A stretch of 64,000 bases of DNA from Geoglobus ahangari (GTDB lineage Archaea > Halobacteriota > Archaeoglobi > Archaeoglobales > Archaeoglobaceae). The position numbers were made by a program, and so were the translations under genes. Within the stretch, counting starts at the first letter, position 1; every line of letters begins with the position of its first letter. The notes beneath the pieces were generated by a model. That model worked only from the letters and a program-made list of their open reading frames with translations. It was not told the origin of the DNA and ran no database searches. Below are positions 10,947 through 14,951 of this stretch, piece by piece. The stretch is from assembly GCF_001006045.1 (NCBI RefSeq), contig NZ_CP011267.1:1054001-1118000 (forward strand), in the 5' to 3' direction.

Positions 10947-12635
10947 ATGGCTTGGATTCACCCCGGCATCGTCATAATCCTCGGAGCCCTCCTGATTCCA
11001 TTCGTAAAGTCGAGGAGGGTCGAGCAGATACTATTCCTGCTGCTCCCTCTCACCTCCCTCGCGATACTCCTGCTGACATCCCTTGGCTACTTCGGTTCGA
11101 TCCCGTTCACAACTCTGAAGATCCACTTCCTCGACTACGAGCTCGTCCTCGCGAGGGTTGACAAGCTCGCAATGGTCTTTGCCTACGTCTTCTCCCTCGC
11201 GGCAATCGCTATGAACGTCTATGCTTTACATGCAGACAGGCTCGAGCACTTCTCGGCGATGATGTACGTTGGCAGCGCTCTCGGAGCGGTTTTTGCGGGT
11301 GATGTCTTCACCCTCTACGTCTTCTGGGAGATGATGGCCATCGCGTCCCTCTTCCTGATCTGGTTCAGGAGGACCAAGAAGGCCGAGAATGCGGGGTTCA
11401 GATATGCGCTCTGGCACCTGTTCGGCGGTCTGTGCCTGCTCGCAGGCATAGTGCTCTACGTCCTCCAGACTGGAAGTACGGAGTTCACGCTTTTCAGCCC
11501 ATCAACCGGCCTCGCCTACTACCTCATACTGCTCGGCTTCATAATAAACGCAGCAGTCCCGCCGCTGCACGCATGGCTGCCTGACGCTTACCCTGAAGCT
11601 ACTGTCACCGGGGCCGTTTACCTTACAGCATTCACCACGAAGACCGCCGTTTACACCCTCGCGAGGGGATTTGCTGGGGAAGAGATTCTGATGTGGCTCG
11701 GCGCGATAATGGCGATGTACGGAGTTATCTTCGCCGTTCTGGAGAACGATGGAAGGAGATTGCTGTCGTACCACATCATCTCTCAGGTAGGGTACATGGT
11801 TGCGGGGGTTGGAATAGGCACCGCCATGGCGATTAACGGAGCGACCTCGCACGCGTTCACCCACATCCTGTACAAGGCCCTGCTCTTCATGGGAATGGGT
11901 GCGGTCATCCACGTCACCGGCAGGAGCAAGTTCACAGAGCTCGGAGGGATTTACAGGTACATGCCGATAACCTTCTGGCTGTACATGGTCGGAGCCTTCT
12001 CCATTTCAGCCTTCCCGCTCTTCAGCGGGTTTGTGAGCAAGAACATGACCGTGTACGCCTCAGCTGAAGCTCATCTGCCCTTGGTGTGGCTGCTGCTCGA
12101 GGGTGCGAGCGTCGGAACGTTCCTGCACACGGGTTTGAAGCTGCCCTGGAACGTGTGGTTCTCAAAGGAGCCGGAGATCGAGGCGAGGGAGCCGCCGAAG
12201 AACATGCTCGCTGGGATGGCGATACTCGCATTGCTGAACATCTTCTTCGGAATCTACCCCGGATACGAGATCCTCTACTCCCTCCTGCCGTATCCTGTCG
12301 AGTACCACCCGTACGCTCCGGCCAAGGTAATCGCCATGAGCCAGCTGCTGCTCTTCACATTCTTTGCATTCTGGCTCATGAGGGACAAGCTCAGGGGAGA
12401 GGCGAAGATCGTCCTCGACACGGACTGGCTGCCCAGAATTCTGGGCAACTACTTCATCTACTACAGCATCAGGTTCACGGAGTTCTCAAAGGAGCTGGAC
12501 AGGAGGTTCCTTGAAGCAGCGTCGAGGTTCAAGGCCATCGCGGGCATGAGGCTCAAGGAGCTCAGCGCTGGCTATGGCGTGCTCATAGTCTGCCTGGTCT
12601 TCGCCGTCTACCTGCTCCTCTTCATAGCCACCTGA
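10947..12635 (+). CDS. Mrp antiporter large subunit, copy 3 (NuoL/MrpA-like)
   Basis: The 562-residue protein has the PF00361 features GDVFTLYVFWEMMAIASLFLIW, NAAVPPLHAWLPDAYPEATVTGAVYL (followed by TAFTTKTAVY) and DGRRLLSYHIISQVGYMV. After about residue 430 it continues into a C-terminal extension (lateral helix and final anchor), as in NuoL-type subunits, ending in a strongly hydrophobic helix. It closes the operon. The third antiporter-like subunit makes this a large complex compared with bacterial Mrp, which has two. Confidence 0.9.
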   Translation: MAWIHPGIVIILGALLIPFVKSRRVEQILFLLLPLTSLAILLLTSLGYFGSIPFTTLKIHFLDYELVLARVDKLAMVFAYVFSLAAIAMNVYALHADRLEHFSAMMYVGSALGAVFAGDVFTLYVFWEMMAIASLFLIWFRRTKKAENAGFRYALWHLFGGLCLLAGIVLYVLQTGSTEFTLFSPSTGLAYYLILLGFIINAAVPPLHAWLPDAYPEATVTGAVYLTAFTTKTAVYTLARGFAGEEILMWLGAIMAMYGVIFAVLENDGRRLLSYHIISQVGYMVAGVGIGTAMAINGATSHAFTHILYKALLFMGMGAVIHVTGRSKFTELGGIYRYMPITFWLYMVGAFSISAFPLFSGFVSKNMTVYASAEAHLPLVWLLLEGASVGTFLHTGLKLPWNVWFSKEPEIEAREPPKNMLAGMAILALLNIFFGIYPGYEILYSLLPYPVEYHPYAPAKVIAMSQLLLFTFFAFWLMRDKLRGEAKIVLDTDWLPRILGNYFIYYSIRFTEFSKELDRRFLEAASRFKAIAGMRLKELSAGYGVLIVCLVFAVYLLLFIAT

Positions 12636-12638
12636 CCT

Positions 12639-12664
12639 CCCAAATTTTTCGGGTATTTTTTGGG
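12639..12664 (+). terminator. Terminator of the Mrp operon
   Basis: Just after the last Mrp stop codon, CCCAAA (12639-12644) and TTTGGG (12659-12664) are inverted repeats, and two oligo-T runs (12645-12649, 12656-12661) lie between them. Archaeal RNA polymerase stops at such T-runs. Confidence 0.6.
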
Positions 12665-12670
12665 GCGCAT

Positions 12671-12690
12671 GAAAAACTATTTAAATTCAT
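12671..12690 (+). promoter_or_regulatory. Promoter of the ilv operon
   Basis: GAAAAA followed by CTATTTAAA (12677-12685) is a good BRE/TATA pair. The usual 25 bp to transcription start puts +1 at about 12705-12708, next to the ATG of the leader ORF. ACCC-GAATGAT-GGGT (12691-12705) is a small inverted repeat between TATA and start, a possible operator. Confidence 0.6.
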
Positions 12691-12707
12691 ACCCGAATGA
12701 TGGGTCA

Positions 12708-12770
12708 ATGCGAAAGTGCAGCAGAATAGCAGAACTCTGCAACCTCTTTTTGCTTGTAGTAGTACACTGA
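12708..12770 (+). CDS. Putative leader peptide of the ilv operon (20 aa)
   Basis: ATG 12708 to TGA 12768-12770 encodes MRKCSRIAELCNLFLLVVVH. Four Leu, one Ile and three consecutive Val codons (GTA GTA GTA) in 20 residues just before the acetolactate synthase genes is the pattern of a bacterial ilv attenuator peptide. In my reading GTA is a scarce Val codon in the neighbouring genes. The predicted mRNA 5' end is at or just before this ATG, so it would be read as a leaderless cistron. A hairpin (12765-12785) starts at its last sense codon. Expression and role are inference. Confidence 0.6.
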   Translation: MRKCSRIAELCNLFLLVVVH

Positions 12771-12785
12771 ATCTTCTGATTAGTG
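12765..12785 (+). promoter_or_regulatory. Hairpin between leader ORF and ilvB
   Basis: CACT(G)AAT and ATTAGTG pair to a 7-bp stem with one bulged G and loop CTTCTG. The stem begins at the last codon and stop of the leader ORF and ends where the GGTGG ribosome-site region of ilvB starts. Upstream, GCAGA occurs twice (12721-12725, 12729-12733) and either copy can pair with TCTGC (12736-12740), followed by TTTTT (12747-12751). Confidence 0.45.
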
Positions 12786-12797
12786 GTGGGTGGTTTT

Positions 12798-14462
12798 ATG
12801 AGAGGTGCTGATGCCATTGTCAAGGCTCTGGAGAAGGAAGGTGTGAAGCATATCTTCGGTATACCGGGAGGAGCAATAATCGAGGTTTACGACGCCCTCT
12901 TCGACTCTGAGATAAGGCACATACTCACGAGACACGAGCAGGCAGCCGTGCATGCTGCAGACGGCTACGCGAGAGCGACAGGAAGGACGGGTGTTGCGTT
13001 TGCCACGTCTGGCCCGGGAGCGACCAACACTGTCACCGGAATAGCCACAGCTTACATGGACTCCTCGCCCATAGTCGTTATGACCGGGCAGGTTGCGAGA
13101 AGCCTGATCGGAAACGATGCGTTTCAGGAGGCGGACATAACCGGCATAACCATGCCGATAACCAAGCACAACTACCTCGTCACTGACGAGAACGATCTCC
13201 TCAGGATAGTCAAGGAGGCATTCCACATCGCCTCCACGGGCAGGCCTGGGCCAGTGCTGATTGACCTTCCTAAGGACGTCACCGTTGCCGAGGTCGAGTT
13301 TGACTATCCCGACAAGATAGAGCTTCCCGGCTACAAGCCGAAGTACGCCGGGCATCCGAGGCAGATAAAGAAGGCCGCGGAATTGATAACGAAAGCTGAA
13401 AGGCCTGTGATTCTGGCCGGAGGAGGGGTTGTGCTCTCAAACGCCAGTGAAGAGCTGACAAAGCTGGCCGAGACGATTCCCGCTTACGTCGCCACAAGCC
13501 TGATGGGCAAGGGCGCCATACCGGAAACCCATCCCCTGAGCCTCGGCTTTGTCGGGATGCACGGCTCCAAGTACGCAAACTACGCGGTTCAGGAAGCGGA
13601 TGTGCTGATAGCGGTTGGAATCAGGTTCTCGGACAGGACGACCGGCAGGGTCTCCGACTTCGCCCCCAACGCGAAGATAATCCACATCGACATAGACCCT
13701 GCCGAGATTGGAAAGAATGTCGACGTCGATGTGCCGATTGTCGGTGACGCGAAGCTCGTTCTGAGGGAGCTGATAAAGCACATAACCTACAGAAAGAGGA
13801 AGGAATGGGAGGAAAAGGTGGAGGGCTGGAGGAAGGCCTACCCGCTGAGGTACAGGCAGGACGAGAAGATCAAGCCCCAGTACGTCATAGAGAAGATATG
13901 GGAGCTCGCTCCGGATGCCATAATAACCACGGAAGTTGGGCAGAACCAGATGTGGGCCGCCCAGTACTTCAAGGTCAATAGGCCTAGGCAGTTCATAACC
14001 TCCGGTGGTCTTGGAACGATGGGCTTTGGCTTCCCAGCTGCGATGGGTGCCAAGACGGCGTTCCCTGACAAGCAGGTCGTCGACATTGCCGGAGACGGTA
14101 GCTTCCTGATGAACATTCAGGAGCTTGCAACCTGCGTTGACTACGGCATAAACGTGAAGGTCGTGATCCTCAACAACATGTTCCTCGGAATGGTCAGACA
14201 GTGGCAGGAGCTGTTCTACGACGAGCGCTACTCAGCAACATGCCTCAGGTGCAAGGAGATGAGCTTCGAGAAGATCGCCGAGGGATTTGGAGCTGTTGGC
14301 ATGACGGTCGAAAAGCCGTCTGAGGTCGAGGATGCGCTGAAGGAGGCGTTCGAGATAGACGCGCCGGTGGTGATAGACTTCAGGGTTGACAGGCTCGAGA
14401 ACGTCTACCCGATGGTGCCAGCCGGAGCAGCGCTGCACGAGGTTATTGACGAGGAGGTGTGA
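12798..14462 (+). CDS. ilvB: Acetolactate synthase, large (catalytic) subunit
   Basis: The protein, 554 residues from ATG 12798, condenses two pyruvates, or pyruvate with 2-oxobutyrate, using ThDP, Mg2+ and FAD: the first common step of valine, leucine and isoleucine synthesis. Visible are the catalytic-Glu region ([17 protein letters not shown], near residue 45), GPGATN, the central FAD/Rossmann domain, and the ThDP motif [12 protein letters not shown]...VVILNN. GTG codons upstream in frame (12783) would add MVGGF; the ATG is preferred because the GGTGGGTGG ribosome site covers those codons. ilvN follows 3 bp later. Confidence 0.96.
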
Positions 14463-14465
14463 GTT

Positions 14466-14951
14466 ATGAGGCACACCATAGCCGCGCTTGTTGAGAACAG
14501 GCCCGGAGTGCTCGCGAGAGTTGCGGGTCTGTTCAGGAGGAGGGGCTTCAACATTGAGAGCCTCGCGGTTGGAGTCACCGAGAAGGAAGGGATCTCGAGG
14601 ATGACCATAGTTGTTGCGGGCGACGACAGGACAATAGAGCAGGTCACGAAGCAGCTGAACAAGCTCATAGAGGTCATAAAGGTCAGCGACGTCTCAAGCA
14701 ACGCAGTGGAGAGGGAGCTGGCCCTCATAAAGGTTGCGACGACCCCTCAGACGAGGGGGGAGATAATTGAGATCGCCAACATCTTCAGGGCGAGGATAGT
14801 TGACGTCTCGAGGGAGTCCTTCATAATCGAGATAACGGGAGACGAGGACAAGGTCAACGCGTTCATCGACCTCATGAGGCAGTACGGCATAAAGGAGGTC
14901 GCGAGGACAGGGAAGATCGCGATGCAGAGGGGCAGCAAGTCAATGGAATGA
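14466..14951 (+). CDS. ilvN: Acetolactate synthase, small (regulatory) subunit
   Basis: The 161-residue protein starts with an ACT domain (MRHTIAALVENRPGVLARVA, then GLFRRRGFNIESLAVG) and has the C-terminal ALS_ss_C domain (residues about 85-155, with FRARIVDVSRESFIIEITG). It binds the end product, usually valine, and controls the large subunit. It lies 3 bp after ilvB and overlaps the radical SAM gene by ATGA. Confidence 0.95.
   Translation: MRHTIAALVENRPGVLARVAGLFRRRGFNIESLAVGVTEKEGISRMTIVVAGDDRTIEQVTKQLNKLIEVIKVSDVSSNAVERELALIKVATTPQTRGEIIEIANIFRARIVDVSRESFIIEITGDEDKVNAFIDLMRQYGIKEVARTGKIAMQRGSKSME

Follow-up and report, generated by a model that had tools for sequence, protein, structure and literature searches.

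A putative leaderless leader-peptide attenuator upstream of ilvBN in the archaeal family Archaeoglobaceae

Introduction

Leader-peptide attenuation is a textbook bacterial mechanism. In the his, phe, leu, and ilv attenuators of enterobacteria, a short leader rich in the amino acids produced by the pathway lies beside the biosynthetic operon, where the leaders are Shine-Dalgarno-led and accompanied by intrinsic terminator hairpins. For the ilvBNC attenuator of Corynebacterium glutamicum, the leader MTIIRLVVVTARRLP is described as having its start codon one nucleotide from the transcription start (Morbach et al., 2000, as cited in PMC11857589); according to the same account, its control codons are CUU and GUA, and replacing three Val abolishes the valine response (PMC11857589). 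This leader heads a region of 292 nt, which also contains hairpins acting as terminator and antiterminator. The mycobacterial poly-Cys ORFs, as summarized in PMC9031893, are leaderless and carry contiguous codons for the amino acid that is sensed; they lie immediately ahead of an operon, which is attenuated via ribosome speed (Canestrari et al., 2020).

Here, a comparable ORF is described in front of ilvBN in Geoglobus ahangari and its relatives in the family Archaeoglobaceae. The strain 234T of G. ahangari reduces Fe(III), is capable of autotrophic growth, and has an optimum of 88 °C (PMC4600277), and the genome analyzed consists of one contig of 1,770,093 bp. Coordinates are those of a stretch of 64,000 nt from this genome (NZ_CP011267.1, positions 1,054,001 to 1,118,000), hereafter the window.

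The C. glutamicum ilvBNC attenuator appears to be the closest parallel, as it shares with the archaeal locus the same gene, a leaderless start (predicted in the archaeon), an LVVV-type tract, and the control codons CUU/GUA. In contrast to this bacterial system, the Archaeoglobaceae leader is separated from ilvB by only 12-40 nt, has no conserved hairpins, carries its tract directly before the stop, and is preceded by an archaeal TATA promoter. The mycobacterial ORFs are alike in architecture, but they concern cysteine and are likewise bacterial. The enterobacterial attenuators are alike in the product-rich leader next to the operon and in having control codons close to the stop, as hisL and pheL do, whereas neither Shine-Dalgarno-led leaders nor intrinsic terminator hairpins were seen at ilvB of the Archaeoglobaceae.

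Results

A 20-codon ORF encoding MRKCSRIAELCNLFLLVVVH (12708-12770, forward strand, as are all features of the locus) was located between a TATA box and ilvBN. It contains four Leu codons, one Ile codon, and three consecutive GTA Val codons, and its Leu and Val codons adjoin the stop in a control tract of CTC TTT TTG CTT GTA GTA GTA (12744-12764). The TATA box of the promoter, CTATTTAAA, lies at 12677-12685, with a gap of 22 nt from the TTTAAA hexamer to the leader ATG (12708-12710). Downstream, a 27-nt spacer (12771-12797), which includes the Shine-Dalgarno sequence GGTGGGTGG (12785-12793), separates the leader stop from the ilvB ATG at 12798. The presumed controlled genes encode the large subunit of acetolactate synthase (ilvB, 12798-14462; NF004710 above cut-off, TIGR00118 E=1e-273) and its small subunit (ilvN, 14466-14951; TIGR00119 E=9e-69). 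The whole leader element spans about 120 bp. An earlier sequence-only reading of this DNA had described the same ORF, codon counts, 27-nt spacing, and TATA box, all of which were found to be correct when re-read from the window sequence.

To place the ORF in a broader context, IlvB was located in 60 relatives and in 55 genomes of Archaeoglobaceae, where 50 ilvB starts were readable. An equivalent short ORF preceded ilvB at 48 of these 50 starts, in 12 genera, which is far beyond chance. The leaders are 13-28 codons long with a Val/Leu/Ile-rich end, their stops lie 12-40 nt before ilvB, and a Shine-Dalgarno-like motif was present in all 48 spacers. Examples include MQKNPISSASLELFLIVVVC, MLANCGIRNLELFSVIIVVVQ, MQTMLNLPVVVVC, MSATLELNNFGVVLGVVLIVVVVLLL, and MPKFIPIPAILVSLLVLVE, as well as MKKFSGKEFIVVQLLLLF in genome G060, each followed by its stop. 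The peptide sequences drift between genomes, while the branched-chain codons beside the stop are retained. The exceptions were G072, whose ATG and control tract are in different frames, and the fragmented MAG G007, which has no intact leader. This poor-quality genome has two ilvB N-termini, on contigs C254 and C53 (L190 and L191); upstream of one is a leader-like end, FLVVH and a stop, without a usable start codon, and the other has no leader. The comparison of relatives proposed in the earlier reading, for a Leu/Val/Ile-rich ORF amid drifting flanks, was thus positive.

The codon content of the leaders differed markedly from that of the gene they precede. Val, Leu, and Ile codons made up 50% of the leaders versus 23% of ilvB, and they occupied the codons -2, -3, and -4 before the stop in 98, 94, and 98% of leaders, respectively. 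Val was encoded by GTA in 152 of 193 cases, compared with 125 of 1461 (9%) in ilvB, giving an odds ratio of 40, and GTA accounted for 7% of the Val codons in 36 long ORFs of the window. Similarly, Ile was encoded by ATT in 61 of 81 cases in leaders versus 400 of 1408 in ilvB. The P value of the GTA bias (1e-97) is overstated, as genomes within a genus are related, yet the pattern recurs in all 12 genera. Third-position GC was lower in leaders overall (0.47 among non-branched-chain leader codons of the family versus 0.76 in the ilvB of the window). However, Val favours a third-base A and Ile a third-base T; base composition therefore does not explain the codon bias. The G. ahangari genome has one tRNA-Val gene per anticodon (GAC, CAC, and UAC), along with tRNAs matching ATT, CTT, and TTG. 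The single gene with the anticodon for GTA, tRNA-Val(UAC), which would be the trans component of the system, is on the minus strand of the window at 2156-2228 (G000:C1:1056156-1056228).

The phase of these codons bears on the possibility that a transcription factor binds GTAGTAGTA as its DNA operator and that the ORF is incidental. Archaeal amino-acid genes are commonly regulated by DNA-binding proteins, and the GTA repeats do lie near the promoter. However, 152 of the 155 GTA triplets in leaders are in frame, with three in the second phase and none in the third. A GTA was found 2 to 7 codons before the stop in every leader, while its distance from the ATG varies from 30 to 75 nt, and the GTA codons are interleaved with ATT, CTT, and TTG codons. 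An operator is hence very improbable. A functional small membrane peptide, for which the hydrophobic C-terminus and its conservation throughout the family could speak, is given an equally slight chance: the sequence drifts at lengths of 13-28 codons, the hydrophobic part is in many cases too short to span a membrane, particular synonymous codons are selected, and the position before ilvB is fixed. Judged by codon usage and phase, selection acts on the codons, and neither a DNA site nor a protein sequence is its target.

The promoter geometry was similarly constrained. The gap between the TATA hexamer and the leader ATG was 22 nt in 34 genomes, 21 nt in seven, 23 nt in six, and 25 nt in one (21-23 nt in 47 of 48). 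Across the G. ahangari genome, TTTAAA followed by ATG after 21 to 23 nt occurred at 94 sites versus 30 in a reversed control; therefore, the spacing at the leader is the ordinary geometry for leaderless starts, and leaderless translation of the short ORF is to be expected. The TATA spacing thus predicts a transcription start at the leader start codon or within about 2 nt of it, such that the mRNA would begin at this codon. The leaderless branched-chain leader peptide of the sequence-only reading is strongly supported, as a prediction, by the conservation of its location, its distance from the promoter, its codons and their phase, and by its restriction to ilvB.

Other sites with this promoter motif were also noted. 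A second short ORF with a leaderless start, MSKNIND and a stop, ends 24 nt before a Shine-Dalgarno-led gene starting with MRLSRREFNKALAALGATGF (L234; minus strand of G000:C1, near 770287); it has no amino-acid bias and represents a different kind of upstream ORF. In addition, three near-identical TATA-containing stretches, TTTAAATACTGCAGCGAAAGTT.AGT.ATGCATGG, were found at L223, L228, and L237 (G000:C1 near 586938, 682163, and 795199). L223 is associated with a CRISPR-like array of 35-nt repeats at a spacing of 67-68 nt, and the three stretches may be CRISPR leaders.

The arrangement was specific to ilvB. Among the 94 exact-TTTAAA sites of G. ahangari, only the ilvB site leads into a short, amino-acid-rich ORF that is followed immediately by a gene with a Shine-Dalgarno sequence, and a family-wide search for TTTAAA, ATG, and GTAGTA in succession returned mostly background besides the ilvB leaders. 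No equivalent ORF was found before leuA-type (PF00682) or ilvD (PF00920) genes in 10 family genomes each plus two outside, before ilvC (PF07991) in 10 family genomes, or before leuC homologues (PF00330) at 20 loci. Weak upstream matches at these homologues were rejected, as they look like the ends of upstream genes or are without the TATA geometry. The trpE gene, examined for Trp-rich ORFs only, gave two unconvincing matches. The genome-wide search used the exact TTTAAA, such that leaders with other TATA variants or for other amino acids may have been missed, and the archaea sampled were nearly all from this phylum.

Outside the family, three of 45 ilvB loci, which are mostly archaeal and bacterial operon members, passed even a loose Val/Leu/Ile criterion. 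In the genomes of the same order outside the family (G036 and G037), ilvB is located behind a leuA/cimA-like gene, and no leader was found before that gene. The leader thus coincides with the family whose ilvBN genes are under a promoter of their own. A different element (L192 in G037, L193 in G036), of the form GGGTGTGCCA ... GCGACGACGGGACC ... GGCACACCC, is shared by these two same-order genomes ahead of the leuA/cimA-like gene, with a divergent gene for a MinD-like ATPase on one side and the leuA/cimA-ilv operon on the other. It contains an inverted repeat that is conserved and has 14 invariant nt at its core; the repeat is possibly an operator or a structured RNA and has no Rfam match.

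The earlier reading had also proposed an RNA switch, in which the foot of a hairpin at 12765-12785 reaches the ilvB ribosome site and mutually exclusive GCAGA/TCTGC stems are followed by TTTTT. The possible hairpin, which covers the last codon, the stop, and the beginning of the spacer, can be drawn as CACTGAATC-TTCT-GATTAGTG, and its support is confined to the genus: the six lower pairs were standard pairs in 97% of cells, with one doubly compensated pair. However, this pairing did not go beyond column shuffles (71 of 500 did as well), the hairpin was not supported across the family, and it is weak given growth at 88 °C. The GCAGA/TCTGC stems and the TTTTT are indeed present in the G. ahangari genome, but the stems were rejected as a switch, being private to this genome, with TCTGC gone in its nearest relatives (92% IlvB identity).

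More generally, the leader region of G. ahangari folded no better than shuffled sequence (z=+0.24), and the region from the last codons to ilvB was not more structured than shuffles across 48 genomes (mean z -0.32, p 0.28). Clear hairpins were restricted to some genera (for example, G008/G019, G068, and G014), and strong hairpins with U-rich loops or tails were present in some. No match to Rfam covariance models, such as the ilv leaders and T-box, was found at E up to 1 in 12200-13200. The ilvB Shine-Dalgarno was not more sequestered than in shuffles over the 48 genomes (0.356 versus 0.366 unpaired), and the RNA switch was not supported in the form proposed. RNA sequestering the ribosome-binding site, as is reportedly the case at mycobacterial poly-Cys leaders, is not a family rule in Archaeoglobaceae. 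Alternative hairpins or a terminator tied to ribosome position were hence not found by family-wide hairpin, Shine-Dalgarno sequestration, or genus-level shuffle analyses.

The spacers were also compared for runs of at least five T, which were found in 33% of genomes versus 10% (sd 4%) in shuffles, with the enrichment in genera other than Geoglobus. Such runs would suit termination by the archaeal RNA polymerase and raise the possibility of transcription attenuation, where the same leader controls ribosome-dependent termination, intrinsic or FttA-dependent, at U-runs between the leader and ilvB. This would also agree with the U-rich hairpins of some genera and with FttA as the likely cause of polarity in archaea (PMC12548453). 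However, seven of the 12 genera are without a run of five T in the spacer, no terminator is conserved family-wide, the spacers are short, and Val is encoded by GTA rather than GTT, which indicates that the tract was not selected for T-richness. We regard termination as a somewhat unlikely second choice for the last step.

Discussion

The leader before ilvBN is probably a leaderless attenuator that senses tRNA charging. Transcription would start at the leader ATG or beside it, and this 5' AUG would be where ribosomes begin. When the Val, Leu, and Ile tRNAs are charged, ribosomes would run fast to the leader stop, 12-40 nt before ilvB, and ilvB expression would be low. When charged tRNA-Val(UAC) is in short supply, and less strongly so for Leu or Ile tRNA, ribosomes would stall on the GTA/ATT/CTT/TTG tract before the stop, and ilvBN expression would rise. 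In the last step, a ribosome stalled at the last GTA may leave room for another ribosome to bind at the ilvB Shine-Dalgarno, or may unfold the RNA for it; conversely, a ribosome at the leader stop, or the RNA after its release, may hinder access to this site. Translational access to the ilvB start is the version of the last step that we rank first, with about an even chance of being correct.

Of two weaker signals relevant to the last step, one is the T runs described above and the other is the geometry of the spacer, which would be consistent with translational access. The number of nucleotides after the last GTA was anticorrelated with spacer length (rho -0.48, p 5e-4; -0.43 at the genus level, where it is not significant at p 0.17), so that the last GTA ends 29-37 nt before the ilvB ATG in most genera, with about 12 nt more in g8, g9, and G018. 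An initiating small subunit reaches to about -20. On its downstream side, a ribosome covers about 12 nt of mRNA beyond the codon being decoded (PMC4833913). By these dimensions, a ribosome stalled on the last GTA and one initiating on ilvB would just fit, and one at the stop would crowd the site.

The short distance from the leader stop to ilvB (12-40 nt) could also be read as a sign that the leader merely feeds ribosomes to ilvB by termination-reinitiation, with its amino-acid content having no sensing role. However, translational coupling in H. volcanii fades with spacing, with little or none above 30 nt, which makes coupling unlikely at the spacings observed here (PMC12548453). Reinitiation also leaves the Val/Leu/Ile codons and the GTA bias unexplained, and it works in the wrong direction, as stalling would lower ilvB expression when it is needed. 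We consider it improbable.

The tRNA-charging-sensitive leader is thus predicted to work like the bacterial attenuators. With these it has in common a short ORF directly upstream that is enriched in codons for the pathway products (48 of 50 starts; 50% Val/Leu/Ile), and codons, rather than a peptide, that appear selected (GTA and ATT bias, in-frame phase, and drifting peptides). We do not class it as a bacterial-type attenuator, because the defining competing hairpins were looked for and not found, and because its translation and response are predicted. No archaeal leader-peptide attenuator was found in the open-access literature, and within this scope the present one would be the first.

The wider proposition, which we hold to be evenly balanced, is that Archaea use ribosome-mediated attenuation that senses tRNA charging, and that in this family no conserved RNA hairpin is involved. 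Where the ribosome is on the leaderless ORF, either stalled at a GTA about 32 nt before ilvB or at the stop, would itself decide between access to ilvB and its denial, or whether RNA polymerase passes, at temperatures of 80-90 °C, which melt weak hairpins. Because no hairpin is conserved, the locus would offer a natural case for asking how attenuation could operate at 88 °C. GTA, which is among the control codons named in C. glutamicum, is also the preferred Val codon of the leaders, a preference relevant to the hypothesis that attenuators use the isoacceptor whose charging reacts most sensitively. As the element is seen in one family only, convergence with bacterial attenuation is probable. 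If the proposed mechanism is true, Archaea too would sense amino-acid supply by the progress of the ribosome.
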